The notes under the pieces are model-generated. The model saw only the letters and a list, made by a program, of their open reading frames with translations, did not search any database and had not been told where the DNA came from. 62,727 bases of DNA from Chloroflexota bacterium. Its GTDB lineage: Bacteria; Chloroflexota; Dehalococcoidia; SM23-28-2; RBG-16-64-32. Of this stretch, positions 3 through 23,954 are shown one piece after another (position 1 is the stretch's first letter; every line of letters begins with the position of its first letter). The stretch is taken from the NCBI GenBank assembly GCA_029262695.1, contig JAJCYV010000011.1:1-62727 (forward strand). Direction: 5' to 3'. The position numbers and the translations under genes were made by a program.

Positions 3-110
3 GGCTGGCGGGGCGAGCGTAGCGCATATCTGCTGCTGCTCGGCTTCGCGGCGACGGCGTTCACCTACTACGGGAACTACTTCCTCGGCGGGCTGCACAG
101 CTATGGCTAG
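3..110 (+). CDS. ccsA: C-terminal end of CcsA/ResC-type cytochrome c assembly protein (partial)
   Basis: Only the last 35 codons are inside the window. They read GWRGERSAYLLLLGFAATAF and then a segment ending GGLHSYG and TAG. The motif GWRG, a hydrophobic helix and a terminal GLHSY are typical of the C-terminus of CcsA/CcsB/ResC haem-handling proteins of cytochrome c maturation System II, which deliver haem to CXXCH apocytochromes outside the membrane. The stop overlaps the start of the next gene by 8 nt (ATG inside GCTATGGCTAG), so the two are probably translationally coupled. The neighbour is a ResA-like thioredoxin, which fits: CcsA and ResA work in the same pathway. Identification rests on a short fragment plus context. 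Confidence 0.75.
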   Translation, partial: GWRGERSAYLLLLGFAATAFTYYGNYFLGGLHSYG

Positions 111-792
111 CCACGATCTGAGCTCGATGCAACAGCCGGGCCCGCCCGAGCCTGATGCGGTCGAGCCGGAAGAGGAACGGTTTGAGGAATATTTCCGCAC
201 GCCGTTCCGCCGCCCCAGCGCCGGGAGCATCCGGAACGTCGTTGGGACGCTGGTGGTTGCTGTGCTAATCATCGGTGTGGTCTGGTTCATCGAAGGCTCG
301 GGGTCGGCGACAAGCCAGGCAATATCCCTTTCAGCGAGTGCGTCTGGTCCCGCACCGCGTCTTGACCAGCCCGCGCCCCCGTTTGACATGAAGACGCTCG
401 ACGGGCAGATCGTGAGCCTCAGCGACTACAAGGGGCAGCCGGTGTGGATCGCCTTCGGGGCTAGCTGGTGCCCGCCCTGCCGGGCGGAGAATCCTGACAT
501 CGAAGAGATGTTCCAGAAGTACAAGAACGAGGGGCTTGTGATTCTGGCGCCGGCGATCGGTGAGGACTCCGGTACCGTGAGGTCCTATGTGGAGCGGACG
601 GGACTGACGTTCACGGTGGGCGTCGACGAGACGACGCAACTCGCGGCGAACTACCGCATCGTCGGCATCCCCACGCATTTCTTCATCGACCGAGATGGAG
701 TGCTGCGCGTCTGGCGGATCGGGAGTATGAGCCCAAAGACGATGGAGAAGAACATCGGGAAGGTTCTTTCCGTATCGGCCGAGGACCCATAG
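103..792 (+). CDS. resA: ResA/TlpA-like membrane-anchored thioredoxin for cytochrome c maturation
   Basis: A 229-residue protein with a cytoplasmic, acidic N-terminus, one transmembrane segment at about residues 45-63 and an extracytoplasmic thioredoxin fold of the AhpC-TSA/redoxin type. The active site is W122-C-P-P-C126, and the cis-proline region follows near GIPTHFFID. Proteins of this type reduce the CXXCH disulfide of apocytochrome c so that haem can be ligated. It overlaps the CcsA end by 8 nt and lies 15 nt before a decaheme cytochrome, so it likely serves the 35 haem sites encoded downstream. The WCPPC dipeptide differs from ResA's usual CEPC, so a general TlpA-type reductase is possible. 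Confidence 0.85.
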   Translation: MASHDLSSMQQPGPPEPDAVEPEEERFEEYFRTPFRRPSAGSIRNVVGTLVVAVLIIGVVWFIEGSGSATSQAISLSASASGPAPRLDQPAPPFDMKTLDGQIVSLSDYKGQPVWIAFGASWCPPCRAENPDIEEMFQKYKNEGLVILAPAIGEDSGTVRSYVERTGLTFTVGVDETTQLAANYRIVGIPTHFFIDRDGVLRVWRIGSMSPKTMEKNIGKVLSVSAEDP

Positions 793-807: not shown

Positions 808-2340
808 ATGACGCCTCAAGAGCCCGGCCCCAACCAACCGGAAGAGACAGCCAGGCTGAGGGAGCGGGGGTTCAGTCGAATACTGGGGCCGGTCCTGCGG
901 AGAGCCAGTCAGCCGCTGACGCTCGGCATACTCATGGCCGTGGTCACCATCGTGGTGGTCTTTGGGGGCGTGAAGACGCTGGCGTGGATGGAGAGCCCGG
1001 ATTTCTGCGCGCGCTGCCACACCATGGCGCCGGAAGTGAGCGAGCACGCGTTCTCGGCGCACTCGAAGGTGGAGTGTTCGGAGTGTCACATAGGGCGCGG
1101 ATTCAGAGGATTTGCGATCGCCAAGATCGGTGGCCTTCGGCAGGCGACAAAGCTGCTCCTGGGTACGTACGCCAACCCGATCCCACCGGCGGCTGACGTC
1201 ATGCCATCGGCAAACGACATCTGTCTGAAGTGCCACGATCCCGCCGGGCAAGTAGCCGACGCCCTGATCACGCAGACCCATTACCTTGAAGACGAAGGGA
1301 ACACGGAGCAGCGTGTGGCGCTTGTTCTGCGGCAATCCGGCGACGGTGACACCGCCGCCGGCATCCACTGGCACGTCCTTTCGAAGGTGGAATATATCCC
1401 GCGCGATGAGCACGCGTCCGTGATCGACCTGATACAGGTGGAGCGATCGGACGGGACGCAAGATGAGTACATCGCCGAATCCCTGGTGGAGATATCGGAG
1501 CAGGCGGGGCAGACGGCTACTGAGTTGCGGGCGAACGGCGAGCCCCGGCTGATGACGTGCTATGACTGTCACAACCGCGTTGGCCATGCCGAGCCTGTGG
1601 CGGGCAAGGCGGTTGACCAGGCGATGATGGTGCACGCCATCGACCCCTCAATCCCGTGGGTGAAGAAGAACGCCATGGAGATAGTCGCCGATGGGCTCGT
1701 ATCGGAGGATGATCTGCTGGGCGAACTGCGGGAACTCACAGCCGACTATCACCGTGACTACGCCTACCTGTTCGTCGGTGAATCGCCGTCCCTGGGAAGG
1801 TCGCTGGGCTCCATCAGCAGCCTGGGCGTCCAGTTCATCGAGGCCCGTCTTGCGGAACAGGGGGATGTGTATCCAGATTACCTGGGGCACACGGACTCTT
1901 CAGGTTGCTTCCGGTGTCATGACGGTGGGCACTACAAACTTGACGAGGGCCGGCTGTCCGACGAGCCCATCCCGTCCGCCTGCTCGACGTGCCACACCTT
2001 CCCGACTACGGGCGAAAGTGCGCCGGGCGTGATGCTGGGCCCTCCGCCACTAACACATTCCAACCGGCTGTGGGTGTTCGATCACAAGACTGACGCCCTG
2101 GAGGGGGGAGAGCGGGCGAACTGCGGCGAGTGCCACAGTCAGACGTATTGCCAGAACTGCCACGAAAGCGGCGCGGAACTTGTCAATCACGACAACATGT
2201 TCTTTGACCACGGAGCCGTGATCAGGGAGACAACCACGGAGTCGTGCACATACTGCCATCAAAAACCATCCTGTGAGCGTTGTCACTCGGACGAAGAATT
2301 GAAAGATTACCCATCCCAGAGCAGCGGAGGCGGACCATGA
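808..2340 (+). CDS. NapC/NirT-like membrane-anchored decaheme cytochrome c
   Basis: The 510-residue product has an N-terminal membrane anchor (about 36-56) followed at once by CARCH at 67-71, then CSECH and CLKCH in NapC/NirT-like spacing with the characteristic SPDFCARCHTMAPE context. Further sites are CYDCH, CFRCH, CSTCH, CGECH, CQNCH, CTYCH and CERCH: ten CXXCH motifs. NapC/NirT/NrfH proteins take electrons from quinol and pass them to periplasmic partners; here that module appears extended by a seven-haem C-terminal domain with a 300-residue spacer containing few haems (about 145-365). The gene follows resA by 15 nt and overlaps the next gene by ATGA. The terminal partner is not evident. 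Haem count is read directly; quinol oxidation is inferred from the N-terminal similarity. Confidence 0.88.
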   Translation: MTPQEPGPNQPEETARLRERGFSRILGPVLRRASQPLTLGILMAVVTIVVVFGGVKTLAWMESPDFCARCHTMAPEVSEHAFSAHSKVECSECHIGRGFRGFAIAKIGGLRQATKLLLGTYANPIPPAADVMPSANDICLKCHDPAGQVADALITQTHYLEDEGNTEQRVALVLRQSGDGDTAAGIHWHVLSKVEYIPRDEHASVIDLIQVERSDGTQDEYIAESLVEISEQAGQTATELRANGEPRLMTCYDCHNRVGHAEPVAGKAVDQAMMVHAIDPSIPWVKKNAMEIVADGLVSEDDLLGELRELTADYHRDYAYLFVGESPSLGRSLGSISSLGVQFIEARLAEQGDVYPDYLGHTDSSGCFRCHDGGHYKLDEGRLSDEPIPSACSTCHTFPTTGESAPGVMLGPPPLTHSNRLWVFDHKTDALEGGERANCGECHSQTYCQNCHESGAELVNHDNMFFDHGAVIRETTTESCTYCHQKPSCERCHSDEELKDYPSQSSGGGP

Positions 2341-2615
2341 GCAAGATACCCTGTGTGAACTGCGGCGAGATGGTTGACACGTACGCCGGTGCCTGCGAAA
2401 TCTGCGGCGCGGCGGTTGAAGACGTCGGGGCAGCACCCACCAGTGCCGCGGCCGGGCTTCATCCTGTGGCGCCGGCAGTGTTCGTGGTGGCGGCACTGGT
2501 GGTTGGGGCTGCAGGAACGGTGCTGTCCAGCCTTGCTCTGGGGATCCCGCTAGGACTGGTGGGGGGCGGCATCGGTGTGTGGGCGCTGGAGCGCGGGCGC
2601 AGGCTGACAAGCTGA
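2337..2615 (+). CDS. small zinc-ribbon membrane protein in the cytochrome operon
   Basis: I chose the ATG at 2337, which overlaps the stop of the decaheme gene as ATGA; an upstream in-frame start would overlap that gene much further. The 92-residue product begins with two CxxC pairs (CVNC at 6-9 and CEIC at 19-22, a small zinc ribbon), followed by two hydrophobic helices at about 41-60 and 62-78 and a basic tail. Such zinc-ribbon membrane miniproteins occur widely and have no assigned function. The coupling suggests a role in assembly or stability of the decaheme cytochrome, but that is inference. Convergent with the histidine kinase gene 143 bp away; no clear terminator lies between. Confidence 0.65.
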   Translation: MSKIPCVNCGEMVDTYAGACEICGAAVEDVGAAPTSAAAGLHPVAPAVFVVAALVVGAAGTVLSSLALGIPLGLVGGGIGVWALERGRRLTS

Positions 2616-2758
2616 TCGGACGTCCGGCCCAAATGCGCAGGCGTGGAAGGCCTCCTTCTCTCCTCCCAACGCTCTTATGATCCCGCTGTAAGGTCCGGCC
2701 TGAACCTCATTCAAGCCGGCGGAATTCGCATCCAGGACACGCGCCGCGTGAGGACGAT

Positions 2759-3952
2759 TCAGGTGGCGGACCGCTGCGTCGATCCAGGCCATCGGGATTG
2801 GCTGCCGTTCTGGATCTGTGTTTCGGTCACACCTGACTCGCCGCAGGGCAGTTCTACCGTGATCGTTGTGCCCCGGCGCGGCATTGTACGAATGTCCAGT
2901 GCGCCGCCCACGAGACGAGCCCGCTCATCCATTCCCAGCAGCCCCAGCTTGCCCCTCTTGCCCAGGTCGCTCAACTCGCTCAGAGATCCCGTTAGCCTGA
3001 ACCCACGTCCATTGTCCGCCACGGTCATCGTGATCCGGCCGCGCTGACCGCGCAGAGAGACGACGGCATCGGTCGCGCCGGAGTGCCGACCGACGTTGCG
3101 CAGGGCCTCCTGGGCGATGCGGAACAGGAGCAACTCCGTCTCCGGCGAAAGTTCCGGCAGGGCTCCCACCACCTGCACACGAGACCCGATGCCATACTGG
3201 TCGAGGAGGCTATCGGCGAGCCACTCCAGGGCGGGGATGAGGCCGTGATCATCGAAGACGCGCGGCCGCAAGTGCTGGGTGAGACGGCGGAGGTCGTTGA
3301 GAGTCCTGACTGTTTCGGCACGCATGTCTTGCAACTCCGCCGACACCTCTGACGGAAGGCGGAAGTTCTCGTCGGCGACTAAGCGGTCCAGCCGCTGGCA
3401 GCTAAGAAGGAGGGCCTGCGCGGTGTCGTCGTGGAGTTCCATGGCGATGCGCTTGCGCTCGTCCTCCTGCGACGTCAGCACCTGGCGCACAAAGTAACGC
3501 AGGCCATCGCGCACTCTCTCCTGGGTCTCCGTCTTCCTGATCTGTTGGGTTACGGCGAGGACCAGGAGCCCGCCTGCCACCATGATTCCGGCCATCTCCG
3601 TCAATGCGTGATCCGTGTGGTCCGAACCCATCACCGCCCGTGGGAACAAGACCGCGAAGGCGACGGCCCCGGTGGCGACGCCACCCCGCCCGCCGAACAC
3701 AAATGTCGCATATACGACCGGCACCAGGAACAGGATCCGCTCTACGCTCTGTCTGACAGCAAGGCCGACCGGAGAATGATCAGCGACTGCCGAGAGCAGG
3801 GGAAGCCAGTCTCCATAGTGCAAGAGGATGGCCACCGAGAGCATGGCGATCGTGAGCGAAAGGGGGAGCGGGGATCCGTCCGCTCTTGGCCTGGCTAGCC
3901 CGAGGCGATGTTGCCAGCGGCGGACGTCAATTCGGGGTGCCGTGGTCTCCAT
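2759..3952 (-). CDS. NarX/DegS-family sensor histidine kinase
   Basis: A 397-residue kinase with an N-terminal membrane domain of about four helices (31-52, 72-87, 92-108, 118-136), followed by a dimerisation/phosphoacceptor helix of HisKA_3 type with the motif ERKRIAMELHDDTAQ; the phosphorylated residue is probably H174. The C-terminus is a HATPase_c domain with N-box, ADNGRGF (G1) and a GLLGM G2 box. No extracytoplasmic sensor domain is present, so the signal is probably sensed in the membrane. It lies 15 bp downstream of a NarL-type regulator on the same strand and forms a two-component system with it. The position inside the cytochrome island suggests it controls those genes. The ligand is unknown. 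Confidence 0.9.
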   Translation of the reverse strand: METTAPRIDVRRWQHRLGLARPRADGSPLPLSLTIAMLSVAILLHYGDWLPLLSAVADHSPVGLAVRQSVERILFLVPVVYATFVFGGRGGVATGAVAFAVLFPRAVMGSDHTDHALTEMAGIMVAGGLLVLAVTQQIRKTETQERVRDGLRYFVRQVLTSQEDERKRIAMELHDDTAQALLLSCQRLDRLVADENFRLPSEVSAELQDMRAETVRTLNDLRRLTQHLRPRVFDDHGLIPALEWLADSLLDQYGIGSRVQVVGALPELSPETELLLFRIAQEALRNVGRHSGATDAVVSLRGQRGRITMTVADNGRGFRLTGSLSELSDLGKRGKLGLLGMDERARLVGGALDIRTMPRRGTTITVELPCGESGVTETQIQNGSQSRWPGSTQRSAT

Positions 3953-3967
3953 TACGGGTCTTGAGTC

Positions 3968-4663
3968 CTAGACTGGCTCCTGAGCGTCAACGTCAGAGCC
4001 CTTCGGGGTCACGTCTTCCATCTGGATCCATCCCCTGCGCAGAGCCTGCAGCACGGCCTCGGTCCGGGAGCCGACGCCCGTCTTGTTGAAGATGTTGACC
4101 ATATGGGCCTTCACAGTGGGGAGACTGAGCCCCAGCTCGGTGGCGATCTCCTTGTTGCTTAGACCGCTGGCGGCAAGGCCCAGTACGGTTATCTCCCGTT
4201 TCGTGGGCCGTCCGCCGCTGGCAGACGATAGGGCGGGGCCGGGCGAGCGCGACGCCATGACCAGGAGCTTGGCGGTGACGGCCGGATGAAGCACGGCGTC
4301 CCCCGCGTGGATTGAGCGAATGGCCTGGATCACCTCCTGGCCGCACGAGTCCTTCAGGAGGTAGCCGGCGACGCCGGCCTCTAGCAGCCCGAGCACGTAA
4401 CGGTCATCGTCATAGGCGCTGAGGATGATCACTGAGGTGGTTGGGTTGGACACCTTGATCTGCTTGGTCGCTTCGATGCCATTGAGTTCCGGCATGACCA
4501 CATCCATCAGGACTACGTCTGGTTCGAGGGCCTGAACCATCGCCACGGCCTCCGTGCCGTTGGCCGCCTCGCCCACGACCTTCATGTCCGGTTCCTTCTC
4601 CAGAACCCTGCGCATGCCCTCGCGCAGCAGCCTGTGGTCATCCACCAGCGCGACGCTAATCAC
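3968..4663 (-). CDS. NarL/LuxR-family response regulator paired with the kinase
   Basis: 231 residues. The receiver domain has the acidic pair D8-D9, phosphoacceptor D54 in VVLMDVVMP and the conserved lysine in GYLLKDS, so it should be phosphorylatable. A LuxR-type helix-turn-helix (about 154-212) contains LSNKEIATELGLSLPTVKAH. It is the first gene of a two-gene transcription unit with the downstream histidine kinase. A perfect inverted repeat (4718-4731) lies about 55 bp upstream of its start and could be an autoregulatory operator, although that is untested. It points away from the small membrane gene at 5000. Confidence 0.92.
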   Translation of the reverse strand: MISVALVDDHRLLREGMRRVLEKEPDMKVVGEAANGTEAVAMVQALEPDVVLMDVVMPELNGIEATKQIKVSNPTTSVIILSAYDDDRYVLGLLEAGVAGYLLKDSCGQEVIQAIRSIHAGDAVLHPAVTAKLLVMASRSPGPALSSASGGRPTKREITVLGLAASGLSNKEIATELGLSLPTVKAHMVNIFNKTGVGSRTEAVLQALRRGWIQMEDVTPKGSDVDAQEPV

Positions 4664-4999
4664 TCTCCACGTCTCCTCTCCCGACCCCTCCCAAGAACAT
4701 TGTGAGAGGATTCACCAATTCTGTCCAGAATCTTTAGTACTAGGCCTATTGACACGTGCCCGTCCGGATGCCTCGGGGCGATGCATTCTGGTGGCCGATG
4801 CGCCGCAGTACTGGCGGTGCGACGTTGCGGGTGGAAGCGTCGAGAGGAGGTACCAAGGTGGCGACGACAAGAGACCCTAGTCGGACTACCGCGGCGCCTC
4901 GGCTCCATTGTTACACGCATTGTGGGGGCCCTAGGTTGGATGGTGGTGAGGGGCGCAAGAGTGACGTGGGCTCCAGCGCTGGAAACGGAGGCAAGGGAA
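4664..4999. other. divergent intergenic region (336 bp)
   Basis: No convincing gene is seen. It separates the response regulator (minus strand) from a small membrane protein gene (plus strand). It contains the perfect dyad at 4718-4731 and a TTGACA hexamer at about 4749-4754 on the plus strand, without a good -10 at standard spacing. A Shine-Dalgarno-like GGAGG occurs at 4987-4991 in front of the gene at 5000. Confidence 0.5.
4718..4731. promoter_or_regulatory. perfect inverted repeat, candidate operator
   Basis: ATTCTG-TC-CAGAAT is a perfect 6-2-6 dyad in the divergent promoter region. The centre is 61 bp upstream of the response regulator start. NarL-type regulators bind short inverted heptamer pairs, but this sequence is not a known NarL consensus; assignment to either regulator here is speculative. 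Confidence 0.4.
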
Positions 5000-5353
5000 A
5001 TGGACACGACGACTTACGTTCTGTTGGTTGATCTGCCCCTTCTCGTGTTGGGACTAGGTGTGATCTCCGCCATTGCCTGGAATCGGAACGGTGGCACCGC
5101 GGCCATTCTGGGCAGGGGCAGTTCTTTAGACGCGCGGCTCGCCGGGATGGCGACGTTGTTCGGACTATGGCTGTTGCTGACCTTGTCGTCGCTATGTCTC
5201 ACCTTCGCCGGTGGTCTCGTGGTCTTCTGCCTGCTTCTGTTCTGGTTGGGGCATGGCGCCGCCGCGGTGGGGGCCTTTCTGGTCGTGGCGGCCCTGGCGT
5301 GCATCCCGTTCATCTGGGGATGGGCGCTATTGAGACCTGTGGCGAGGCGATAG
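5000..5353 (+). CDS. small three-to-four-helix membrane protein
   Basis: I chose the ATG at 5000 because GGAGG lies about 9 nt upstream and the product then starts directly with a hydrophobic helix. The 117-residue protein has membrane segments at about 6-27, 48-68, 71-87 and 90-109 with short basic loops and no cofactor motif. I do not recognise the family. It precedes the second LuxR-type regulator by 39 bp in the same direction, so both probably share a transcript and may be functionally linked (for instance a membrane signal component). Hydrophobic, compositionally simple proteins can be misannotated; the strong ribosome binding site supports it being real. Confidence 0.55.
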   Translation: MDTTTYVLLVDLPLLVLGLGVISAIAWNRNGGTAAILGRGSSLDARLAGMATLFGLWLLLTLSSLCLTFAGGLVVFCLLLFWLGHGAAAVGAFLVVAALACIPFIWGWALLRPVARR

Positions 5354-5392
5354 ACGGAGCATTGCCCGGATGCGTGTGTCAGGAGCGATGGC

Positions 5393-6085
5393 ATGAGCGA
5401 GAACGGAAGATCGGGCGAGGGCGGAGTCGGGCTGCGCGTCATGCTCTGCCACGAGGTGCCCGTGATGCGCGGCGGCCTGCGGGCCATCATAAACGCCGAG
5501 CGCGACATGGAGGTGGTGGCAGAGGCGGATGGGCTTGTCGACGCCGTCCGCCTGATTGACGAAATCAGGCCGGACGTGATCGTTACCGACCTCCGCATGG
5601 ACAGCGGGGATGGGCTCGACGCGATGCGCGCCGTGAAGAACGAGGCTCCATGGCTGCGGATACTGGTGCTCGCTGTCCAGGGATCTGCGGAGTTCTTCCT
5701 CCTGGCGATGAGGGCCGGAGCCGACGGCTACCTGACACGGGACGCAGAGCCGGTGGAGGTGGTCAGCGCCATCCGCTGCCTGAGCAACGGCCACAACTAC
5801 GTCAACGCCTCCATCGTGACCATGCTGGTGAGCAACTACGTGTGCAAGACACGCGGGGGCGAGATGGAGGATCCATACGATATCCTGACCGACCGCGAGA
5901 AGGAGACCTTGTTTCTGGTGGCCGCGGGCAACACCAACCGCGAGATCGCTGAGATCTTGCGTCTGAGTGAGCGGACCATTCACAACGTGCGGGCCCGGCT
6001 GATGGAGAAGCTGGGCTTCCACGATCGTTTGGAGCTTCTCAAGTACGCCCTTCGGCGCGGCATCGTCAGCGCCGCGGACGTGTGA
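5393..6085 (+). CDS. atypical NarL/LuxR-family response regulator with degenerate receiver
   Basis: 230 residues: receiver (about 14-130) and LuxR helix-turn-helix (about 165-222, with TNREIAEILRLSERTIHN). The phosphoacceptor equivalent, D66 in VIVTDLRM, is present. The acidic pair after the first strand is replaced by H20-E21 (LCHEVPV where canonical regulators have DDH), the conserved Ser/Thr after strand 4 is alanine (LVLAVQGS), and the conserved lysine is arginine (GYLTRDA). Such changes usually mean weak or no phosphorylation and constitutive or ligand-driven activity. No kinase is adjacent; the nearest is the gene pair ending at 4663. It sits directly upstream of the pentaheme and cytochrome b-octaheme genes and may control them. 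Confidence 0.88.
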   Translation: MSENGRSGEGGVGLRVMLCHEVPVMRGGLRAIINAERDMEVVAEADGLVDAVRLIDEIRPDVIVTDLRMDSGDGLDAMRAVKNEAPWLRILVLAVQGSAEFFLLAMRAGADGYLTRDAEPVEVVSAIRCLSNGHNYVNASIVTMLVSNYVCKTRGGEMEDPYDILTDREKETLFLVAAGNTNREIAEILRLSERTIHNVRARLMEKLGFHDRLELLKYALRRGIVSAADV

Positions 6086-6124
6086 CATGACTCCCTGGAG
6101 GAGCAACGGAAGGAGTGAGAAGCA

Positions 6125-6394
6125 ATGCTGCTCGTGACAACAGCGATGCAGTTCATAGCCGGCTGCCTAACTCTCGGACTCGGGCTGTTCCTGATCGCCG
6201 GGGCTTTGCGGGACCTTAGTCGAGTCCGGCTCCTGCCGTCGGTCGGCACTCACACGGTGACGGCGAGGAAGAAGGTCGTATGGGCAGTCTTGAAGTCTGT
6301 CCCGTCGGTCAGCGCGCGCACGGTGACCGCATTGGGCGGCGCGCTTCTGCTGGCGGCGGGTGGCTATGCTGCCCACCTGGCCGTGCCCCTTTAG
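6125..6394 (+). CDS. small two-helix membrane protein
   Basis: 89 residues with a strong ribosome binding site (AAGGAGTGAGAAGC) just before the ATG. Two hydrophobic helices (about 6-28 and 65-86) flank a basic loop containing RKK. No cofactor-binding motif. It lies 39 bp after the regulator and 27 bp before the pentaheme cytochrome, all in one direction. I do not recognise a family; it may be an accessory subunit of the membrane cytochrome complex, which is inference from position only. Confidence 0.6.
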   Translation: MLLVTTAMQFIAGCLTLGLGLFLIAGALRDLSRVRLLPSVGTHTVTARKKVVWAVLKSVPSVSARTVTALGGALLLAAGGYAAHLAVPL

Positions 6395-6421
6395 TGTTGG
6401 ACACGGGAAGGCGGAGACGCT

Positions 6422-7159
6422 GTGAATCGAAGTCTGAGCTGGCGGATCTTCGCCGCCGTCGCGGCGGTGACCGCAGCGTGGTTCATCGGCCTCACATCGG
6501 CCGGCGCCGACCCTATGCCTCCCCCGGTCGATGCCCATCCGGAGAATGGCCTCTGCCTCGCGTGTCACGGTGGGAAGCTGACCGTCGAAGCCAGTACAGA
6601 TCAACAGCGGACGATAGAAGCCATAGAGCTGCACGCGTTCGACGCCTCCGCCCATGAGGGCATGGAGTGTGTGGAGTGCCATCCCGCGCAGTCTGCTCTG
6701 CCCCACGCCCAGCGGGAGGGACTGGGGCTGCTGACCGCCAGTGACGCGGTCGCCTGCCAGGAGTGCCACAGCGATGCCCATGAGGGGTACCTCGATAGCC
6801 CCCATGGAACGATGGCGAAGCTGGGCGATGACAGGGCGCCGACCTGCGGCGATTGCCACGGCGATGTCCACTACCTGCCACTCCTCCAGCAATGGACAGC
6901 GCACGACCGGGCGGAGGCCTGCGCGAACTGCCACTCAGGGGCGACCTCCAGCTTCCTGGATGCCGCACCACTCCACAAAGCTGTTTCGCCCGGCTTCCTA
7001 TCAACGGCCTACGTCGCCGGCATCTTCCTGATGATCCTAACGGCGACGACTCTGGCGTTCGGCATCATTCACGTTGAGCTGGAGATGCTACGCTGGCTCA
7101 TCCGCCGGCTCACCGGCATGCGTGGGACAGGGACTACAGGCGATGGCCACGCAGGTTAG
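6422..7159 (+). CDS. membrane-anchored pentaheme cytochrome c
   Basis: Starts at GTG (6422). The 245-residue product has an N-terminal signal peptide or anchor (about 9-28), five CXXCH sites (CLACH, CVECH, CQECH, CGDCH, CANCH) over residues 45-170, and a C-terminal membrane helix (about 199-217) with a basic cytoplasmic tail. The arrangement of a cytochrome domain held by a C-terminal anchor recalls membrane cytochromes that receive electrons from a neighbouring b-type cytochrome. The stop overlaps the start of the next gene by 17 nt, which encodes such a cytochrome b, so the two proteins probably form one complex. Redox partner and potential are unknown. Confidence 0.88.
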   Translation: MNRSLSWRIFAAVAAVTAAWFIGLTSAGADPMPPPVDAHPENGLCLACHGGKLTVEASTDQQRTIEAIELHAFDASAHEGMECVECHPAQSALPHAQREGLGLLTASDAVACQECHSDAHEGYLDSPHGTMAKLGDDRAPTCGDCHGDVHYLPLLQQWTAHDRAEACANCHSGATSSFLDAAPLHKAVSPGFLSTAYVAGIFLMILTATTLAFGIIHVELEMLRWLIRRLTGMRGTGTTGDGHAG

Positions 7160-8870
7160 CCGACAGCAGTTCGGAGTGCAGGCGGTGGAGCAGCGGTCGC
7201 TGTCTAAAGACGCCCAGGTGGTCCGCTTCGACGTGCATCAGCGCATCCAGCATTTCCTCATGATGAGCAGCTTCATCGTGCTCGCGCTGACCGGGTTGCC
7301 GCAGAGGTTCAGCGAACTCGGCGTTAGCCAGTGGTGGGTGGGAAGCCTGGGCGGCCTGGAGACCGTCCGGACGATCCATCGCCTGGCCGCGGTCGTCATG
7401 CTCACCGATTGCGCCTACCACATCGCCTACCTCTTCTATCGGATCGGCGTGCAACGACGCTTCGGCTGCTTCAGGATGGTGCCCACGTTCAAGGACCTGC
7501 GCGATGGCCTCCAGACGGTGCGGTACTTCCTGGGCCTGGCGCCGGAGAAGCCGAAGTTCGACCGCTTCAATTATCTGGAGAAGTTCGACTACTGGGCGGT
7601 CTTCTGGGGGATTGCTGTCATCGGCGGTTCGGGGCTGATGCTAATGTTCCCTGTTGCTGTCACCAGGGTCTTGCCCGGCCAGGCTGTAAGCGTCGCCCTC
7701 ATCCTCCATGCCGACGAAGCGATACTGGCTGTGGGATGGATCATCGTCATGCACATGTTCAATGTGCACCTGGCGCCGTGGGTCTTCCCCTTTAACCCGG
7801 CCATCTTCACCGGCAAGCTGAGCGCCAGGAGCTACGCTGAGGATCATCCCCTGGAGTGGGCTTCTCTGGAAGCGGCCGGAGGGGCGACGGAGGCGCCGCC
7901 GCAGAGCGCGCATCGCTGGCGGGCGGACGAGGGTGAGAGCGCCGCCTGGGCGGTGCGGGCTCGAAACCTTATGGCTATGGTCGGGAAGAGAACTCGCATG
8001 ACGAGGGCGCGGGCGCTCTTGTCGCTACTGGTGGTTGGCAGCCTTCTGCTGGTCGGTCCGCTGGGCTGGGCTGATGGCGGGATCAGTGGTCCTCCCTCCC
8101 CGGAGGCGACGCCCACGCCTACACCCTCACCCGCTGCTTCGTCGCAGGCTAGCGCGACGCCCACGCCGGCCGCCGAGCCCACCGGACCTGCCGCTCTGAC
8201 GCACCGCCTGGCCGTCGTGCAGGAGTTCCTCTGCGAGAGCTGCCACCGCCCCAATAGCGGATGGCTCTTGCCCGACGACGATGACCATGCGGTACAGCAG
8301 GAGCAATCCTGCGACAGCTGTCATGCGCCGGCGCCCGAGCCTTCGCCGGTCGCTGTTCATCACGTGCCCGGGGATACCGCCACACAAGAACTCTGCGCCC
8401 TGTGTCACAGAGATCCCGTGCAGCTGGCGCCGCGCCCGGTGGCGCCACAGATCTCCGCCGCCCAGGCTTGTTCTTCGTGCCATGAGGGCGACGAGCGCGC
8501 CGACCCTCCGGCCGACCACGCGGGGCGCTCCGTGACGACCTGCTCGCTCTGCCACGAGACGCAGTCGCTAGTCGCCCAGGCCGTGCCTCACAAGGTCGCA
8601 AGTTGGGAGGAGTGCAGCTTCTGCCACGGGGAGGATCGCCTGTCGCCGTTGAAGGGCGGCCATGAAGATCTCGCGGACGACGAGTGCCTGCGATGTCACG
8701 ACGCAGTTCGATCTCCGCCAAGTATGACGATGGCGACGCTAGATAATTCTCAGGCCAGGGGCGTGTGCACGTGGTCCAGCGGCGAAGACCTGCCGGGGCC
8801 GCCTTCCGCCGAAGACGCGGAACGCACCGACATGCTGTGCGCCCTCTGCCACGGCGCCTACGACGAGTAA
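7143..8870 (+). CDS. fusion of di-haem cytochrome b (FdnI/HydC-like) and octaheme cytochrome c
   Basis: I chose ATG 7143, which lies in the end of the previous gene. The 575-residue product has an N-terminal four-helix cytochrome b of the formate dehydrogenase gamma/hydrogenase b type (about 34-215) with candidate haem ligands H32, H37, H79, H93, H189, H204 and H209. A linker follows, then a hydrophobic segment at about 290-308 that looks like a signal peptide, a Pro/Thr-rich spacer (about 316-350) and eight CXXCH sites from C364 on. This combination resembles the concept of Geobacter CbcL, a quinol-oxidising b/c multihaem fusion. The internal ATG at 7998 is preceded by a purine-rich stretch, so separate internal initiation of the octaheme part is conceivable. 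Confidence 0.85.
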   Translation: MATQVSRQQFGVQAVEQRSLSKDAQVVRFDVHQRIQHFLMMSSFIVLALTGLPQRFSELGVSQWWVGSLGGLETVRTIHRLAAVVMLTDCAYHIAYLFYRIGVQRRFGCFRMVPTFKDLRDGLQTVRYFLGLAPEKPKFDRFNYLEKFDYWAVFWGIAVIGGSGLMLMFPVAVTRVLPGQAVSVALILHADEAILAVGWIIVMHMFNVHLAPWVFPFNPAIFTGKLSARSYAEDHPLEWASLEAAGGATEAPPQSAHRWRADEGESAAWAVRARNLMAMVGKRTRMTRARALLSLLVVGSLLLVGPLGWADGGISGPPSPEATPTPTPSPAASSQASATPTPAAEPTGPAALTHRLAVVQEFLCESCHRPNSGWLLPDDDDHAVQQEQSCDSCHAPAPEPSPVAVHHVPGDTATQELCALCHRDPVQLAPRPVAPQISAAQACSSCHEGDERADPPADHAGRSVTTCSLCHETQSLVAQAVPHKVASWEECSFCHGEDRLSPLKGGHEDLADDECLRCHDAVRSPPSMTMATLDNSQARGVCTWSSGEDLPGPPSAEDAERTDMLCALCHGAYDE

Positions 8871-8974
8871 GCTCTCTCGGCGCCGCTCTCGCTGATCGGC
8901 CAACGTGCTGTATCGGCTGTCATGCATCCGAAGCGTTCATCAAGCCGTGCGGGCGGGCAGACCCTGTCGACTAG
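8870..8974 (+). pseudogene. possible frameshifted haem-motif remnant after the octaheme gene
   Basis: Read in the frame shifted relative to the octaheme gene, the sequence just after its TAA encodes SSLGAALADRPTCCIGCHAS and continues to TAG at 8972-8974. The CCIGCH is a perfect haem c motif. A frameshift near 8870 would add a ninth haem to the fusion protein. It could be a decayed tail, a sequencing error or chance; one motif is weak evidence. Confidence 0.3.
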
Positions 8975-9329
8975 ACCTGTGCCGCGTACGACCCGGAGTC
9001 GCTCGGAGGGGCTCCTTCAATACCTGGCACCCTGGGCGAGCGAACAAGCTGCACCGACTTTCGTGCGTCAGCTCCTATACCTTCGAAGGGGACGGCGGGG
9101 CGCCTCATTGGTGGCATTGGCCGATACGGGAAACAGGTACGGACAAGGAATGCGACCCGCGGGCAAGAACAAGCGTGCGGATGCCCTGGGCATCTACCCA
9201 GGCGCCCCACCCTGGGGTATCTAACGATACGGGATAGGAGTGCACACAAGGTGGCCTACCGAAAATCCTCCGGCCGATACGTGATGAGTGACCCGTACAC
9301 ACCTTAGTCTGAGCAAGCAGGTTTACAGA
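8871..9329. other. long intergenic region (459 bp) before the hexaheme operon
   Basis: Apart from the haem-motif remnant at its start, no gene is supported. The region contains three mutually pairing G/C segments at 9185-9216 and three spaced copies of CGATACG at about 9122, 9224 and 9272. It probably holds the promoter and leader of the second cytochrome operon (9330-13780), but I see no convincing -35/-10 pair. Confidence 0.45.
9185..9216 (+). promoter_or_regulatory. two mutually exclusive hairpins (possible riboregulator)
   Basis: CCTGGG (9185-9190), CCCAGG (9197-9202) and CCTGGG (9211-9216) allow the middle segment to pair with either neighbour, with loops of 6 and 8 nt. In an RNA leader this is an attenuator-like switch. 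It lies about 115 nt upstream of the hexaheme gene. Six-base stems are short and may be chance in high-GC DNA. Confidence 0.3.
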
Positions 9330-9932
9330 ATGTCGATCTTGGTCAGAGCTATCCTCTCGGTGGCACTATTAGTCACGCTCGTCCTCGTGCTGCGCTCGAC
9401 GACGGCCAACGTTTCGGTCGGGATCATCGGACTCGTGCATGACGACAATCCGAATTTCTGGGCGTCACGCCAGGTCGTTGCGCAGACCTCCGAGATGTGC
9501 GTCGACTGCCATGAGGCGACGAACGTCTCCTGGGAGGCCGCCGCCCACATCAGGGTCAGCTGTGACACGTGCCACGGTGCAAGCGCCGATCACATCGTGC
9601 GGGCCCGCGCCAACCTCGACGCTCAGATGCCCCTCCCGGACCCGCGTGGCCTCTGCACGACCTGCCATGCCGAGATGCCTTCACGTCCGGACGATTTCCC
9701 ACAGGTTGACCCGCTGACGCACGGCGCGCCGGCCGAGGGCCTTATCTCATCGTGCGTATCCTGCCACAACGCTCATGACCCCGGATTTCCGGCGGATATA
9801 ACGCATACTCTCGAGGGGCGGGCGGATTGCCTGGAGTGCCACTCGGCCGATGAGTGGAAGCCCTTGCCCCCGAGCCATATCGACCGGCCCGTCGATACCT
9901 GTCTGACCTGCCACAACCCGGAGGATAACTAG
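9330..9932 (+). CDS. membrane-anchored hexaheme cytochrome c
   Basis: I chose ATG 9330, which puts the hydrophobic signal anchor (about 5-22) at the N-terminus; a GTG 42 nt upstream is an alternative. The 200-residue protein has six CXXCH sites: CVDCH, CDTCH, CTTCH, CVSCH, CLECH and CLTCH, packed as expected for a small NrfH/c3-like multihaem domain. It is the first gene of a compact run (hexaheme, ferredoxin, NrfD, hexaheme, NHL) with gaps of only a few bases. Small cytochromes in front of PsrB/PsrC-like pairs usually act as electron acceptor or donor of that membrane complex. Confidence 0.88.
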   Translation: MSILVRAILSVALLVTLVLVLRSTTANVSVGIIGLVHDDNPNFWASRQVVAQTSEMCVDCHEATNVSWEAAAHIRVSCDTCHGASADHIVRARANLDAQMPLPDPRGLCTTCHAEMPSRPDDFPQVDPLTHGAPAEGLISSCVSCHNAHDPGFPADITHTLEGRADCLECHSADEWKPLPPSHIDRPVDTCLTCHNPEDN

Positions 9933-9935
9933 CCC

Positions 9936-10733
9936 ATGGCGTTGTCGCGACGGAGATTCTTGAAGCTGGGCGCCAACGCCACCGTCGGTGGGCTCCTGAT
10001 CTACACCCTCCGAGGAGTGCTACCGTCGTCGTCGCCAGGCGCGGCGGATGCCGGGACAGACGACGCCGCCGAGGGGTACACGCCGGGGGACACGAGCTGG
10101 GTGTTCATCATAGACACGATGGCGTGTATTGGCTGCGGCCGTTGCGTCCGCGCCTGTAAGGAAGAGAACGACGTACCACTGGAACCTCACTGCAACCGGA
10201 CGTGGGTTGAGCGATACACGTTCACGACGGATGGCGAGGTATACGTAGACTCGCCGAACTCGGGATATGACGGCTTCGCTGACGCTGAGCTGCCGGAGGG
10301 GGCCAGGGGAAAGGAGATCACCAGGAGCTTCTTCGTGCCGAAGCCCTGCAACCAGTGCGACGCCTCGCCCTGCACCCAAGTTTGCCCTGTGGGCGCAACC
10401 TACAAGACGGACGACGGTATCGTGCTCGTTAACCAGGACAAGTGCATCGGCTGCAGGTACTGCGTACAGGCCTGTCCCTACGCGATGCGCTACATTCACC
10501 CCAGGAAGGGAGTGGCCGACAAGTGCACGTGGTGCTACCACCGCATCACGAAAGGGAAGCTTCCTGCTTGCGTGCAGATATGCCCCGTCGGCGCCAGAAA
10601 GTTCGGCGACCTGAACGATCCGGAGAGCGAAGTCAGCAAGATCCTGGCAGAGCGCAACGTGAGCGTCCTCAAGCCAGAAATGGGTACCAAACCGAAGGCG
10701 TTCTTTCTTGACCTTGATGGGGAAGTTGTCTAG
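9936..10733 (+). CDS. Tat-exported four-cluster ferredoxin subunit (PsrB/NrfC/HybA-like)
   Basis: 265 residues starting with a twin-arginine signal (SRRRFLK at 4-10 and a hydrophobic stretch to about 30), so the folded protein is exported. Sixteen cysteines form four [4Fe-4S] sites: C64/67/70/74, C138/141/146/150, C170/173/176/180 and C197/200/212/216 (the last in the CTWC...CVQICPVG arrangement). This is the electron-transfer subunit type of DMSO reductase-family and Nrf complexes, passing electrons between an NrfD-type membrane protein and a catalytic or cytochrome subunit. It is followed after 2 bp by the NrfD gene. No molybdopterin subunit is adjacent, so multihaem cytochromes are the probable partners. 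Confidence 0.93.
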   Translation: MALSRRRFLKLGANATVGGLLIYTLRGVLPSSSPGAADAGTDDAAEGYTPGDTSWVFIIDTMACIGCGRCVRACKEENDVPLEPHCNRTWVERYTFTTDGEVYVDSPNSGYDGFADAELPEGARGKEITRSFFVPKPCNQCDASPCTQVCPVGATYKTDDGIVLVNQDKCIGCRYCVQACPYAMRYIHPRKGVADKCTWCYHRITKGKLPACVQICPVGARKFGDLNDPESEVSKILAERNVSVLKPEMGTKPKAFFLDLDGEVV

Positions 10734-10735
10734 CG

Positions 10736-11962
10736 ATGGAAGGCTACGTGTTCCCCAACGAAATCGAGGTTCAATGGAGCCTTCTCATAGTCCTCTACCC
10801 GTTTATCACCGGGCTCGTTGCCGGGGCGTTCGTAGTTTCGTCTCTGTACCACGTATTCAACATCAAGGCCCTGAAGCCGGTCGCTTCTTTCTCACTCCTC
10901 ATGGCGCTCTCGTTCATGTTCGTGGCGCCCATGCCCTTGATGGCGCACCTGGGCCGGCCGGAGCGCGGCTTCCAGATCTTCCTCACGCCCAACTTCACGT
11001 CGGCGATGGCCGGGTTCGGCTACATCTGGCTCATGTACCTCATTCTCCTCCTGACCGAGACCTGGCTCGTCTTCCGGCGAGACATCGTCCGCTACTCTCA
11101 GACCACCAGCGGCATCAAGGGGCTCATCTACCAGGTTCTTAGCCTGGGGCGGACGGACCTGTCCGAATCAGCGCGCCGCGCAGATGAGAAAGCGATCAAA
11201 GTGCTCGCGGCCGTCGGCATTCCGGCCGCCGCTCTTTTGCATGGGTACGTGGGGTTCCTCTTCGGCGCGATCAAGGCGAACGCCTGGTGGTCGACGCCGC
11301 TCATGCCGATCATCTTCTTGCTTTCAGCCATCGTGTCAGGGATCGCCCTCCTGATCGTGATGTACATCATCACGATGAAGCTACTCAAGAGACCGATCGA
11401 TCACGACTGTGTCAACTCAATGGCGAGGTGGCTGCTCGTATTCCTGGCGTTCGATCTCACGATCGAAGGGCTTGAGGTGCTGAGCATGGCATACGAAGCC
11501 GAGCACAGCTGGGAGGTCGTCTCTGAGCTGATCACCGAGAGGATCCCGGTGACCTATTTCGGAATCCAGATAGTGCTCGGCTCGCTGATTCCGCTGGCGA
11601 TCCTGGGGACGCTGGCCGCGGGTCAGATCCGCAAAGAGGTCATCATTCCCACCGTGTTCGCCGCTGCTGTCCTCGTCATGATCGGCGTGTTCGCGATGCG
11701 CTGGAACGTGGTCATTGGCGGGCAGCTCATCTCGAAGAGCATGCGTGGGTTCACAAGCTATACGCCACCTCTTGGAGGACGGGAAGGAGTGCTGGCGGCC
11801 GCGCTGTTCCTGGCGCTCCCGTTCTACATCTTCTCCGCCATCACCAGCTTCATACCGCCATGGCAACGGCCAACGGAGGACTATGGCGACGGCGTGGAGA
11901 CTCCGACCGAGGCTGCCCCGGCGTGGGAGACTTCGCGGGGGCGCATAGGTGGCGATTTCTGA
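10736..11962 (+). CDS. NrfD/PsrC-family quinol-interacting membrane protein
   Basis: 408 residues with about nine to ten membrane helices, starting near residue 16. The early motifs VLYPFITGLVAGAFVVSSLY and PMPLMAHLGRPERGFQ are typical of the NrfD/PsrC/ActC family, which exchanges electrons with menaquinol and hands them to the four-cluster ferredoxin. The adjacent Tat ferredoxin (2 bp upstream) is its expected partner. In Geobacter a comparable pairing of NrfD, ferredoxin and multihaem cytochrome (Cbc4 type) is a menaquinol-linked inner-membrane module. The function here is inferred from that logic. A charged C-terminal tail of about 40 residues is cytoplasmic or extracytoplasmic, which cannot be decided from sequence. 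Confidence 0.9.
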   Translation: MEGYVFPNEIEVQWSLLIVLYPFITGLVAGAFVVSSLYHVFNIKALKPVASFSLLMALSFMFVAPMPLMAHLGRPERGFQIFLTPNFTSAMAGFGYIWLMYLILLLTETWLVFRRDIVRYSQTTSGIKGLIYQVLSLGRTDLSESARRADEKAIKVLAAVGIPAAALLHGYVGFLFGAIKANAWWSTPLMPIIFLLSAIVSGIALLIVMYIITMKLLKRPIDHDCVNSMARWLLVFLAFDLTIEGLEVLSMAYEAEHSWEVVSELITERIPVTYFGIQIVLGSLIPLAILGTLAAGQIRKEVIIPTVFAAAVLVMIGVFAMRWNVVIGGQLISKSMRGFTSYTPPLGGREGVLAAALFLALPFYIFSAITSFIPPWQRPTEDYGDGVETPTEAAPAWETSRGRIGGDF

Positions 11963-11984
11963 TGTTGCCAGGGGATGTCGAACG

Positions 11985-12695
11985 ATGAAGCGCACCATCG
12001 TTACCGTAGCGGTCGTCGCACTCCTCTTCCTTTCCACGCTCGGCGTGTCCGCCGTCCTCGGCGAGATGCGGACCGTTTCCAACACAAGCCACGACGTGGC
12101 AGCGCCCGACGTATCGCCCTGCGTCTACTGTCACCTCCCGCGCGACCCCGACGGTGATCTGCTCTGGGCGAACGACCCAAACAGCGGAGACGACTTCTCC
12201 GGGCTCGAACCTCTCTGCTTCAGCTGCCACGACGGCACCGTGACATCAACAGGGCGTTACGTGTTCGACGGCGCTCGCCCTGATCACGTGAGCATCCCCG
12301 GCCTTAGATACCAGGACTGTGATCGCTGCCACGACCCTCACGAAGAGGGCTACGGAAAGTTCGTCAAACTGCCCAACGGAGCGAACTTCTGCAGCAACTG
12401 TCACAGCCGTGCCGGTCCGGCCGACCACCCGGTCGACGTGGACATCCGGGCTTCCAACATCGAGCCCGTCGACGACCAATGGAATCCCGAGGATGGCGAC
12501 TACAGCGGTACGCGTCTCTGGAACGAAGACGGCACCGGCCCCGGCAACTACATGAAGTGCCTCACCTGCCACAGCCCTCACGCCGGCGAGGCCAATACCG
12601 AGCTCAACACGTTGGCGTTCGACTCCACTCACCAGGAGCTGTCGATCTGCCAGAACTGCCACTACGGGTGGCGGAGTGAGCAGGCCGGGGACTGA
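11985..12695 (+). CDS. exported hexaheme cytochrome c (doubled-CXXCH type)
   Basis: I chose ATG 11985, giving a clear signal peptide (about 5-23); an upstream alternative start would overlap the NrfD gene. The 236-residue protein has six CXXCH motifs: CVYCH, CFSCH, CDRCH, CSNCH, CLTCH and CQNCH, with NTSHDV and GLRYQDCDRCHDPHE contexts typical of doubled-CXXCH cytochromes often found with NHL-repeat proteins. It has no C-terminal anchor, so it is probably soluble outside the membrane or held by an uncleaved signal. Its stop overlaps the next start (TGATG). It may be the terminal carrier of the PsrB/PsrC-like complex. Confidence 0.88.
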   Translation: MKRTIVTVAVVALLFLSTLGVSAVLGEMRTVSNTSHDVAAPDVSPCVYCHLPRDPDGDLLWANDPNSGDDFSGLEPLCFSCHDGTVTSTGRYVFDGARPDHVSIPGLRYQDCDRCHDPHEEGYGKFVKLPNGANFCSNCHSRAGPADHPVDVDIRASNIEPVDDQWNPEDGDYSGTRLWNEDGTGPGNYMKCLTCHSPHAGEANTELNTLAFDSTHQELSICQNCHYGWRSEQAGD

Positions 12696-13780
12696 TGGAC
12701 GTACCACAGAACATCTACAACGTGCCGATGGCAAAAGAGAGCCGGCCGTGGCTTAAGGCGCTCCTGGTCGCATCTCTTCTTGCGACGGCCGCTGCCGTAG
12801 CCGGAATCCTGATGCTACCCGACGGAATCCATCATCAGGAGACGCTGCCGACCGTTAGAGGCGTATCGTCGCTGGTCTATCCCACGGCTCAGACCGAACT
12901 GTTGGAGCAGCCGGTCGGCGGTGACTGGCTTCTCCCCGCCGACGCGGTGGTCTCCGCCGGTCACACCTTCGTGCTCGACACCGCTAACAGCCGCATCCTC
13001 AAGCTTGACGCTGCGGGGGGCGTCGTCGCAACGTTCGACGGCACCTCTGACGAACGTCTTGCCCTCGATCAGCCGATGGACATTGCCACGGACGGGAAGC
13101 GCCTGTTTGTCGCCAACTCGTTGGCCGGAGAGGTCGTGATTCTGGACCTCATGGGCCGCGTTGAGACGACCTTGCCGGTCCCGGCTGGCCTCGGCGCCGC
13201 CGCGCCAAGGCCGATAGGCATCGCTCTCACCGATGACGGCGGCATCGTCCTCGCTGACGCCGACAACCACCGCATCGTCGCCCTCGGAGAATCCGGCGGA
13301 GTGCTCTGGGAGTTGGGCAACGGAGCGCGGGCGAGCGGCCTGGACGGCTTCAACGTGCCGGGCGCCCTTGCGACAGACAGCGCGGGCAACATCTACGTCG
13401 CGGACGTGTTGAACGGCCGCGTCGTGAAGTTATCACCAGAGGGCGCCTTCCTCGGCCAGTTCGGGGAACTTGGAGAAACCGCCGGCGCTCTGGCGCGGCC
13501 CAAGGGCGTTGCTGTCGACGCGCAGGGCCGGGTGTTCGTAAGTGACGGACTTCAAGCGGCGGTCCAGGTTTACTCGGCGGACGGATCGTACATCGGTGTC
13601 ATCGGCCGCAGCGACTCTCCGGAACCTGCGTCGGACTCAATCTTCAAGGCCCCGGCAGGGCTCTTCCTGGACGGAGATCGTCTCTTCGTCACGGACCGGA
13701 GGGTCGGCCTGGTGACGATGCAACTTCTAGAGCCGCCGGTCCAGGACACCAGCGACGGCGACGCTGGCCACGGCGGCTAG
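12695..13780 (+). CDS. NHL-repeat beta-propeller protein, membrane-anchored
   Basis: 361 residues. The ATG at 12695 overlaps the previous stop as TGATG; ATG 12728 is an equally plausible start. An N-terminal hydrophobic segment (about 20-41) anchors or exports the protein. The rest contains repeated units such as FVLDTANSRILKLD, GIVLADADNHRIVAL, IYVADVLNGRVVKLSPEG and VFVSDGLQAAVQVYSADG, the hallmark of six-bladed NHL propellers. NHL proteins are common in multihaem cytochrome clusters of iron reducers and Chloroflexota, where their job is unsettled (scaffold, or binding). It is the last gene of the island. Confidence 0.88.
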   Translation: MDVPQNIYNVPMAKESRPWLKALLVASLLATAAAVAGILMLPDGIHHQETLPTVRGVSSLVYPTAQTELLEQPVGGDWLLPADAVVSAGHTFVLDTANSRILKLDAAGGVVATFDGTSDERLALDQPMDIATDGKRLFVANSLAGEVVILDLMGRVETTLPVPAGLGAAAPRPIGIALTDDGGIVLADADNHRIVALGESGGVLWELGNGARASGLDGFNVPGALATDSAGNIYVADVLNGRVVKLSPEGAFLGQFGELGETAGALARPKGVAVDAQGRVFVSDGLQAAVQVYSADGSYIGVIGRSDSPEPASDSIFKAPAGLFLDGDRLFVTDRRVGLVTMQLLEPPVQDTSDGDAGHGG

Positions 13781-23663: not shown

Positions 23664-23805
23664 AAATGCGCCCTAACAGCTACCAGTAGACAGAAGTAGC
23701 CTGCGGAGTGCTCCTAAACAATAAGATGCGTGAAGAAGCGAGTGGTTTCCGGTGATGACCCACTGGGGGTTATCGTTTGGTTAAGGTGGGGAGTAGACTG
23801 AGCGG

Positions 23806-23844
23806 CTATAGTTCGCCCTCGAGGCCGGCCGCTTCGGCGATCGC
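23806..23844 (-). pseudogene. remnant of the HD-GYP 3' end
   Basis: On the minus strand this stretch encodes AIAEAAGLEGEL followed by TAG, the same C-terminus as the intact HD-GYP protein (25848-27377). It is the left arm of the duplication junction. Flanking sequence at 23700-23805 is a diverged match of the 25748-25843 region. Confidence 0.8.
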
Positions 23845-23893
23845 GGACCACGTGCTGGCGATGAGCGAACTCGTCGGCACGTACAGCCGCTAG
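23837..23893 (+). pseudogene. remnant of the PEBP lipoprotein 3' end
   Basis: Encodes AIADHVLAMSELVGTYSR and TAG, matching the last 18 codons of the PEBP gene (21781-21837) with few changes. It is the right arm of the duplication junction and has no start of its own. Confidence 0.85.
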
Positions 23894-23904
23894 CCGGGCA
23901 CGCG

Positions 23905-23935: not shown

Positions 23936-23954
23936 GATTTGGCTTTCTGATCTG

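Follow-up and report, generated by a model that had tools for sequence, protein, structure and literature searches.

The window analysed here is a stretch of 62,727 nucleotides that forms the complete contig C11 of a Chloroflexota draft genome (2.53 Mb, 44 contigs, 90% complete). It opens with an island of multihaem cytochrome genes, which ends in a five-gene operon at positions 9330-13780. The operon joins a set like Cbc4 of Geobacter to a predicted secreted hexahaem cytochrome of the OmcE filament family and to an NHL-repeat propeller, and we judge it an even call that these genes carry electrons from menaquinol to an acceptor outside the cell. The quinol-oxidising modules are of known kinds; what is new is that they adjoin a six-haem OmcE-family cytochrome accompanied by a propeller. 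The homologies and gene neighbourhoods behind this proposal are solid; secretion, polymerisation, interaction between the proteins, electron direction and acceptor are predictions. Comparisons at class level covered 294 genomes of the class; relatives are labelled G, loci are labelled L and the host genome is G000.

The OmcE-family cytochrome and its operon

Successive genes of the operon lie 3, 2 and 22 bases apart, and the last two overlap by one base:

9330..9932, plus strand: membrane-anchored hexahaem cytochrome c (CbcS-like), six CXXCH motifs
9936..10733, plus strand: Tat four-cluster ferredoxin (CbcT-like), PF13247 at 2.2e-26
10736..11962, plus strand: NrfD-type integral membrane protein (CbcU-like), PF03916 at 7.8e-42
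11985..12695, plus strand: hexahaem cytochrome, predicted to be secreted and assigned to the OmcE filament family by profile matches to 7tfs and 9yuq and by its His pattern
12695..13780, plus strand: NHL-repeat propeller with an N-terminal transmembrane or signal segment, PF01436 at 9.9e-21 and matches to NHL structures

The family of the 11985 hexahaem was identified with sequence profiles searched against the PDB. A profile of ten relatives matched OmcE (7tfs, 3.5e-11) and then 9yuq (3.8e-9) ahead of all other chains, while a profile of 80 sequences placed 9yuq first (4.3e-11) and OmcE second (9e-10). Entry 7TFS is described as the OmcE filament (PMC12954529), and 9yuq is a ‘putative multiheme cytochrome c’ with 16 chains in the one entry. 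The match to OmcS was weaker with both profiles (0.0029 with ten sequences, 2.4e-5 with 80). Control profiles built from two further cytochrome families in the island had other best matches; OmcE came eighth at 3.1e-4 with one and was absent up to an E-value of 0.1 with the other. Judged by sequence, the 11985 hexahaem is homologous to OmcE and belongs to its family, a membership that the first-pass annotation of this DNA had missed.

The family search returned 157 proteins, and conservation was counted in an alignment of 80 family members. Six CXXCH motifs occur in all 80, as do H36, H101, H119 and H148, and H199 is present in 78; beyond the last CXXCH, every alignment column has His in fewer than eight of the 80. 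The chain can thus be read as three haem pairs, with a conserved His after each of the first two, none after the last and one before the first. In OmcE, one haem is described as ligated by a His of the neighbouring subunit (PMC9473688, PMC12307469). Since a conserved His precedes the first pair and none follows the last, the family has what a head-to-tail polymer ligated across the subunit interface would need, and we infer that H36 may be the ligand of a haem in the neighbouring subunit. Four-haem relatives are short proteins in Bacillota and Frackibacter, which share the motifs GHP, CH-x-x-H, CHDG, HPI/HPV and CHNPH or CHDPH, and one occurs in a Zixiibacteriota metagenome-assembled genome (MAG).

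The propeller is a recurring neighbour of this family. When named genomes were scanned with the ten-sequence profile and the best-scoring gene was taken at each of 70 loci, an NHL gene lay within two genes on the same strand at 40. By haem number, the pairing held for 10 of 12 genes with six or seven haems, for 7 of 11 with four (two of these eleven, at L117 and L124, are six-haem members cut at a contig end, and at L123 another gene was picked) and for 23 of 47 with other counts, many of which are very long multihaem proteins of weak, possibly composition-driven similarity. Among other genes with at least three haems, taken from the class loci rather than from the same genomes, an NHL gene was nearby in 3 of 49. 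Geobacter OmcS presumably adjoins the NHL protein GSU2505, a protein listed as hypothetical in one paper. NHL genes are also described in multihaem clusters of Desulfovibrio ferrophilus (PMC9769857). A search of the open literature returned no published account of this cluster; the propeller pairing may already be in print in the paper on the OmcE structure or in the 2023 Cell article on prokaryote cytochrome nanowires, both outside that search.

Two further arrangements were noted among these loci. At L092 (G100 C2) and L093 (G284 C449), three tandem OmcE-family genes precede an NHL gene and two-component genes lie nearby. At L145-L180, a 26-haem gene (~650 amino acids) is recurrently paired with a 15- or 16-haem gene (~400 amino acids), sometimes together with NHL and 5-haem genes; this pair was found in Nitrospirae, Desulfobacterota and Deferribacteres MAGs.

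The OmcE family is also found beside genes for quinol oxidation. Of 14 Chloroflexota loci with a family member, counting L123 together with L117, nine have such genes in the stretch read: they are of NrfD type in the window, L112, L113, L114, L115 and L117, of c-b type at L116 and L118, and of ImcH type at L124. The stretch read at L119, L120, L121, L092 and L103 held no such set.

In the window this role would fall to the first three genes of the operon. The first-pass annotation had rightly recognised a Tat four-cluster ferredoxin, which has 17 Cys and a twin-arginine start and is of the Fer4_11 type, and an NrfD protein. Geobacter Cbc4 (CbcSTU) and Shewanella SirCD are described as a c-type cytochrome, an iron-sulphur protein and an NrfD/PsrC-type membrane protein (PMC11434368). 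All three components occur here in one operon, and the set at 9330-11962 corresponds to Cbc4 by gene content as described. Cytochrome, ferredoxin and NrfD protein stand together at seven of seven loci (the window, G010, G011, G024, G038, G222 and L117), a count that leaves out G047, a 46% match with internal stops; in all six relatives a homologue of the 9330 cytochrome with 4-8 haems lies upstream of the ferredoxin and NrfD genes. The order of the window recurs in WY5.bin143, where hexahaem, ferredoxin, NrfD and OmcE-family hexahaem are followed by the contig end (L117), and where a second contig (L123) opens on the tail of a hexahaem of this kind, followed by an NHL gene. In G222, an NHL match shares an open frame with the NrfD protein. 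The set of G024 is followed by a 15-haem gene.

Identity with the Nrf, Ttr or Dsr systems was rejected because every NCBIfam equivalog cut-off was missed and the genome has no match to PF02335 (NrfA). The ferredoxin reached 190 of 416 bits for TtrB, 180 of 200 for DsrO (20 bits short) and 163 of 378 for NrfC, and the 10736 protein fell under the cut-offs of NrfD, DsrP and TtrC. The 9330 hexahaem was likewise considered as a filament protein and rejected: as a single sequence it had no PDB match at 0.01, and its profile matches other cytochromes first.

Predicted electron flow and its alternatives

We propose that menaquinol would be oxidised by the NrfD protein (10736), from which electrons would pass to the four-cluster ferredoxin (9936), the anchored hexahaem (9330), the secreted hexahaem (11985) and finally an acceptor outside the cell. 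The secreted hexahaem plausibly polymerises, its N-terminal His ligating a haem of the adjacent subunit by analogy with OmcE, and the propeller (12695) could serve as an assembly or anchoring factor. The upstream split CbcL (6422-7970) and NapC/NirT cytochrome (808-2340), described below, may provide alternative quinol-oxidation points under the control of the adjacent two-component genes.

The cell envelope bears on this route. Omp85 has no match in the genome, which is 90% complete, and the control search for it finds matches in 7 of 14 known genomes; the result is suggestive of a host without an outer membrane. Chloroflexota of this kind are generally viewed as single-membrane. With no outer membrane to cross, a secreted cytochrome would be outside the cell without a porin conduit. 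In Geobacter, the secretion and anchoring of cytochrome filaments are still called speculative (PMC12307469).

A number of observations weigh against this proposal. The family has six haems rather than the four of OmcE. Position 53, which is His in OmcE and in the four-haem relatives, is Arg in the window and in 50 of the 80 aligned members and His in 16; this leaves five conserved distal His for six haems, an argument against a wire in which all six haems are of His-His type. The match to OmcE covers a single later haem pair besides the first, the DHPV line-up scores below zero, and the AlphaFold model of the 11985 hexahaem is poor (mean pLDDT 57). The family is rare, being found in 8 of the 294 class genomes at 1e-6, and the same search finds no OmcE-family gene in the three genomes of the same genus. 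Only two of the seven NrfD sets (the window and L117) are followed by an OmcE-family gene; those of G010, G011, G024, G038 and G222 are not. A multihaem gene adjoining the operon has decayed. Finally, the genome encodes COX1 on contig C10 and has 12 match rows to the molybdopterin family PF00384, representing about ten genes on C22, C39 and C41, all of which may offer other acceptors.

The haem number and the Arg at position 53 fit an alternative in which electrons are still exported and the 11985 hexahaem acts as a soluble or surface-held monomeric carrier, passing electrons on to a further cytochrome or acceptor without forming filaments. The weaker matches of the 80-sequence profile, which include 6r2q (an Mtr complex entry), OmcS and nitrite reductases, point the same way. 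We regard such a carrier as possible but doubtful, given that the top matches are the OmcE filament and the 16-chain entry 9yuq, that the N-terminal His is conserved and no His-rich column lies beyond the final haem pair, and that G100 and G284 carry tandem copies.

The COX1 and PF00384 genes would instead suit a scheme in which electrons from the modules go to a terminal reductase or oxidase, either a molybdopterin enzyme or a cytochrome oxidase, encoded elsewhere in the genome. The best NCBIfam matches of the ferredoxin (TtrB, DsrO and NrfC) lean in this direction, as do two proteins encoded beside the NrfD set in relatives: a 2-haem protein of ethylbenzene-dehydrogenase type in G038 (PF09459, 3e-44) and an 8-haem protein in G024 whose PF02335 match (23.3 bits) comes near the cut-off of 24.1. 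This scheme is improbable in our estimation, as none of the NCBIfam cut-offs was reached and the genome lacks PF02335. In addition, the ten genes scanned beside the NrfD set in G010, G011, G024 and G038, the other neighbours not having been scanned, include no molybdopterin or NrfA family above cut-off. The first-pass annotation had reported no molybdopterin or NrfA catalytic subunit in the island, and none was found among the island proteins scanned; it had also raised the case of a standard catalytic subunit in the same operon just outside the window. The ten neighbours scanned in the relatives include none of the molybdopterin or NrfA families above cut-off, and, the window being the whole contig, the host genome offers no sequence upstream of base 1. 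The genes that do lie beside the set include an SPFH protein in three genomes and, in G010, a Rieske protein and cytochrome b.

Three observations concern related genes. In G010 and G011, an SPFH/Band_7 gene comes ahead of the cytochrome-ferredoxin-NrfD set, and in G038 one lies near it (L098, L099, L100). Contig C22 of the host genome has most of the molybdopterin-family match rows and also carries a second, distant ferredoxin/NrfD pair (L062). In G196, a relative in the same family as the host, locus L046 on contig C59 encodes two six-CXXCH proteins of 437 and 445 amino acids at 1394-4191, the second with a Dockerin_1 domain; downstream of them is a run of ferredoxin, NrfD, NHL, OmcE-family and NHL genes.

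The direction of flow has been taken as outward. Were it inward, Fe(II), a partner or a mineral would supply electrons to the secreted cytochrome, and menaquinone would be reduced by the NrfD and c-b modules. CbcL-type proteins are described both from Fe(III) reducers and from organisms that oxidise Fe(II) (PMC6295460), and COX1 would be a possible sink. We consider this very unlikely: the same genome carries an ImcH-type gene on contig C36, and the account of ImcH in PMC6295460 links it to quinol oxidation only.

Returning to outward transfer through the OmcE-family cytochrome, a broader proposal can be made, though we hold it tentatively and at somewhat less than even weight. The operon may be a self-contained wire operon of bacteria without an outer membrane, in which quinol oxidase, filament cytochrome and propeller are made together and the six-haem subunits, with their third haem pair, join head-to-tail through the N-terminal His. 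The pairing of OmcE-family and NHL genes would then recur across Chloroflexota, Bacillota, Actinobacteria-labelled MAGs and Zixiibacteriota and be plugged into quinol oxidases of NrfD, CbcL or ImcH type. The operon points to candidates for the charging complex and for an assembly factor, in cells that apparently need no outer-membrane conduit. If the proposal is true, it describes a route for metal reduction or for electron exchange with partners in some uncultured Chloroflexota. The six-haem subunit also provides a concrete target for structure work.

The upstream modules of the island

The island contains 35 CXXCH motifs in five plus-strand open reading frames (ORFs) between 808 and 12695, distributed as 10, 5, 8, 6 and 6, in agreement with the count first reported; all six frames of the 62.7 kb window hold 41, including these 35. 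The island had been presented as a single complex, a view that gene neighbourhoods in Chloroflexota do not bear out. It consists of three separable modules: TlpA with the NapC/NirT cytochrome, regulators with a split CbcL, and the operon at 9330-13780. The modules travel separately among relatives, since G196 has the first two on different contigs and no close counterpart of the 10736 NrfD protein (best match 28%). The features of the first two modules, including the assembly protein and regulators that the first-pass annotation had placed around the cytochromes, are as follows:

103..792, plus strand: TlpA/ResA-type thioredoxin (cytochrome c maturation), PF00578 at 3.1e-25
808..2340, plus strand: 10-haem NapC/NirT-type membrane cytochrome, PF03264 at 4.4e-13
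2759..3952, minus strand: sensor histidine kinase, PF07730 and PF02518
3968..4663, minus strand: response regulator, counterparts 88% identical in G196 and 67% in G222
5393..6085, plus strand: second response regulator, matching NCBIfam regulators, counterparts 80% in G196 and 54% in G222
6125..6394, plus strand: possible small membrane protein of 89 amino acids, low ORF-caller score
6422..7159, plus strand: pentahaem cytochrome c with a C-terminal transmembrane segment (five CXXCH, transmembrane segments 4-22 and 187-205), the putative c half of a split CbcL
7143..7970, plus strand: FdnI/HydC-type cytochrome b, TIGR01583 at 5.5e-9, the putative b half of a split CbcL; the end at 7970 is approximate, as the gene’s own stop is absent here owing to an extra base
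7998..8870, plus strand: multihaem cytochrome c, predicted to be secreted, which retains 8 of 12 CXXCH and is joined in frame to the b gene only through the extra base
8871..9091, plus strand: decayed 3' end of the 12-haem gene, located by tblastn with the G196 protein

In the first module, the NapC/NirT cytochrome has a copy in G196 that is 77% identical. It is accompanied there by an 80% identical counterpart of TlpA, which lies downstream of DsbD_TM (CcdA-type), ResB and Cytochrom_C_asm (CcsA-type) genes. The cytochrome has ten CX2CH motifs, one transmembrane segment and no CX3CH. ImcH is characterised by a CX3CH next to the membrane part and usually three transmembrane segments, and the absence of CX3CH excludes this identity; an ImcH-type homologue of Anaerolinea with one transmembrane segment is listed in PMC6295460, so that the single segment would not exclude it by itself. 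An ImcH-type gene does occur elsewhere in the host genome, at 9000-10529 of L063 on contig C36, and encodes 509 amino acids with three transmembrane segments, one CX3CH and six CX2CH.

The second module is recognised by its order of genes. In CbcL as described (PMC6295460), nine CX2CH occupy the N-terminal half, and the C-terminal half is a b part resembling FdnI/HydC. In the window a c half is followed by a b half of this type, whose match to TIGR01583 (formate dehydrogenase gamma) is below the family cut-off and whose His 81, 95, 191 and 206 are conserved in 21 of 21 proteins; the two halves are not a single polypeptide. A query of the b and c parts against the class found matches in 53 genomes at 0.001, and in 22 besides the host at 1e-40 or better. 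Seventeen of 20 b proteins in relatives directly follow a separate multihaem c gene homologous to 6422-7159; two are fused in c-then-b order (G100 and G272, at L053 and L055), and one is unclear at a contig end. Because the c-then-b order, the fused relatives and the conserved His match the description of CbcL, the pair at 6422-7970 is, by its predicted proteins, a CbcL split over two genes.

Regulators accompany this pair. The genes at 2759-6085 occur with the split CbcL in G196 and G222, where counterparts of the kinase are 78% and 52% identical and its position relative to the c-b genes is unchanged. At 17 of the 20 b loci in relatives, a kinase or regulator gene is found no more than six genes away. 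Small transmembrane ORFs lie upstream of the c-b genes at L048, L053 and L055.

The region after the b gene had been read as a cytochrome b fused to an octahaem cytochrome c, and this fusion had been taken as the CbcL equivalent. The fusion was rejected as a feature, because in both G196 and G222 the two proteins have an ORF each, in frames that differ, and the window carries one base more than either relative at about 7980-7985. The extra base, identified by DNA alignment (77% identity to G196 over 2235 aligned bases; G222 has further length differences here), brings the two genes into one frame and may be either real or an assembly error. The CbcL equivalent is instead the pentahaem protein (6422) with the b protein (7143). 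Of the quinol entry points proposed at first, NapC/NirT, NrfD with ferredoxin, and CbcL-like proteins beside multihaem cytochromes and without a terminal reductase all stand; the b/c fusion does not.

The octahaem protein was likewise rejected as a distinct cytochrome. Its c part opens after Met 7998 with a hydrophobic, export-signal-like stretch, and its counterpart in G196 has 12 CXXCH. The window ORF keeps eight, has lost one internal motif and stops at 8870; from there to about 9091, one haem motif is out of frame and two are lost. Since several substitutions are involved, the window appears to hold the remnant of a decayed 12-haem gene rather than a single sequence error.

Two features lie beyond the island. 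Immediately after it, a large ORF at 13913-15571 matches the thrombospondin type 3 repeat (PF02412). On the minus strand at 21900-25718, two neighbouring 587-amino-acid ORFs have nearly identical starts, an apparent tandem duplication.

Comparison with known systems

The 9330-11962 set shares its three components with Cbc4 (CbcSTU) and SirCD, the Geobacter system being known here by description rather than by sequence comparison. It differs from them in that its operon continues with an OmcE-family cytochrome and an NHL propeller, and in that no Omp85 gene was found in the host. NrfC- and NrfD-like genes with a multihaem partner also recall the NrfABCD nitrite reductase, from which the window is set apart by the missed NCBIfam cut-offs and a genome without an NrfA match.

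Among the other quinol oxidases, the 808-2340 cytochrome shares a NapC/NirT start and many haems with ImcH and the NapC-NirT group; it differs from ImcH in its ten CX2CH, zero CX3CH and one transmembrane segment, and the host’s own ImcH-type gene lies on contig C36. The split CbcL resembles CbcL/MtrH/MtoC of Geobacter and others in its multihaem c part, transmembrane link and FdnI/HydC-like b part, and in two relatives it is a single polypeptide. The window version differs in occupying two genes, in having five haems rather than nine, and in the further multihaem gene downstream. With the OmcE filament (PDB 7TFS), the 11985 hexahaem shares profile homology; the N-terminal HD motif aligns, as do the first and one later haem pair. 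It differs in its six haems, in the Arg at one distal position and in its NHL propeller partner.

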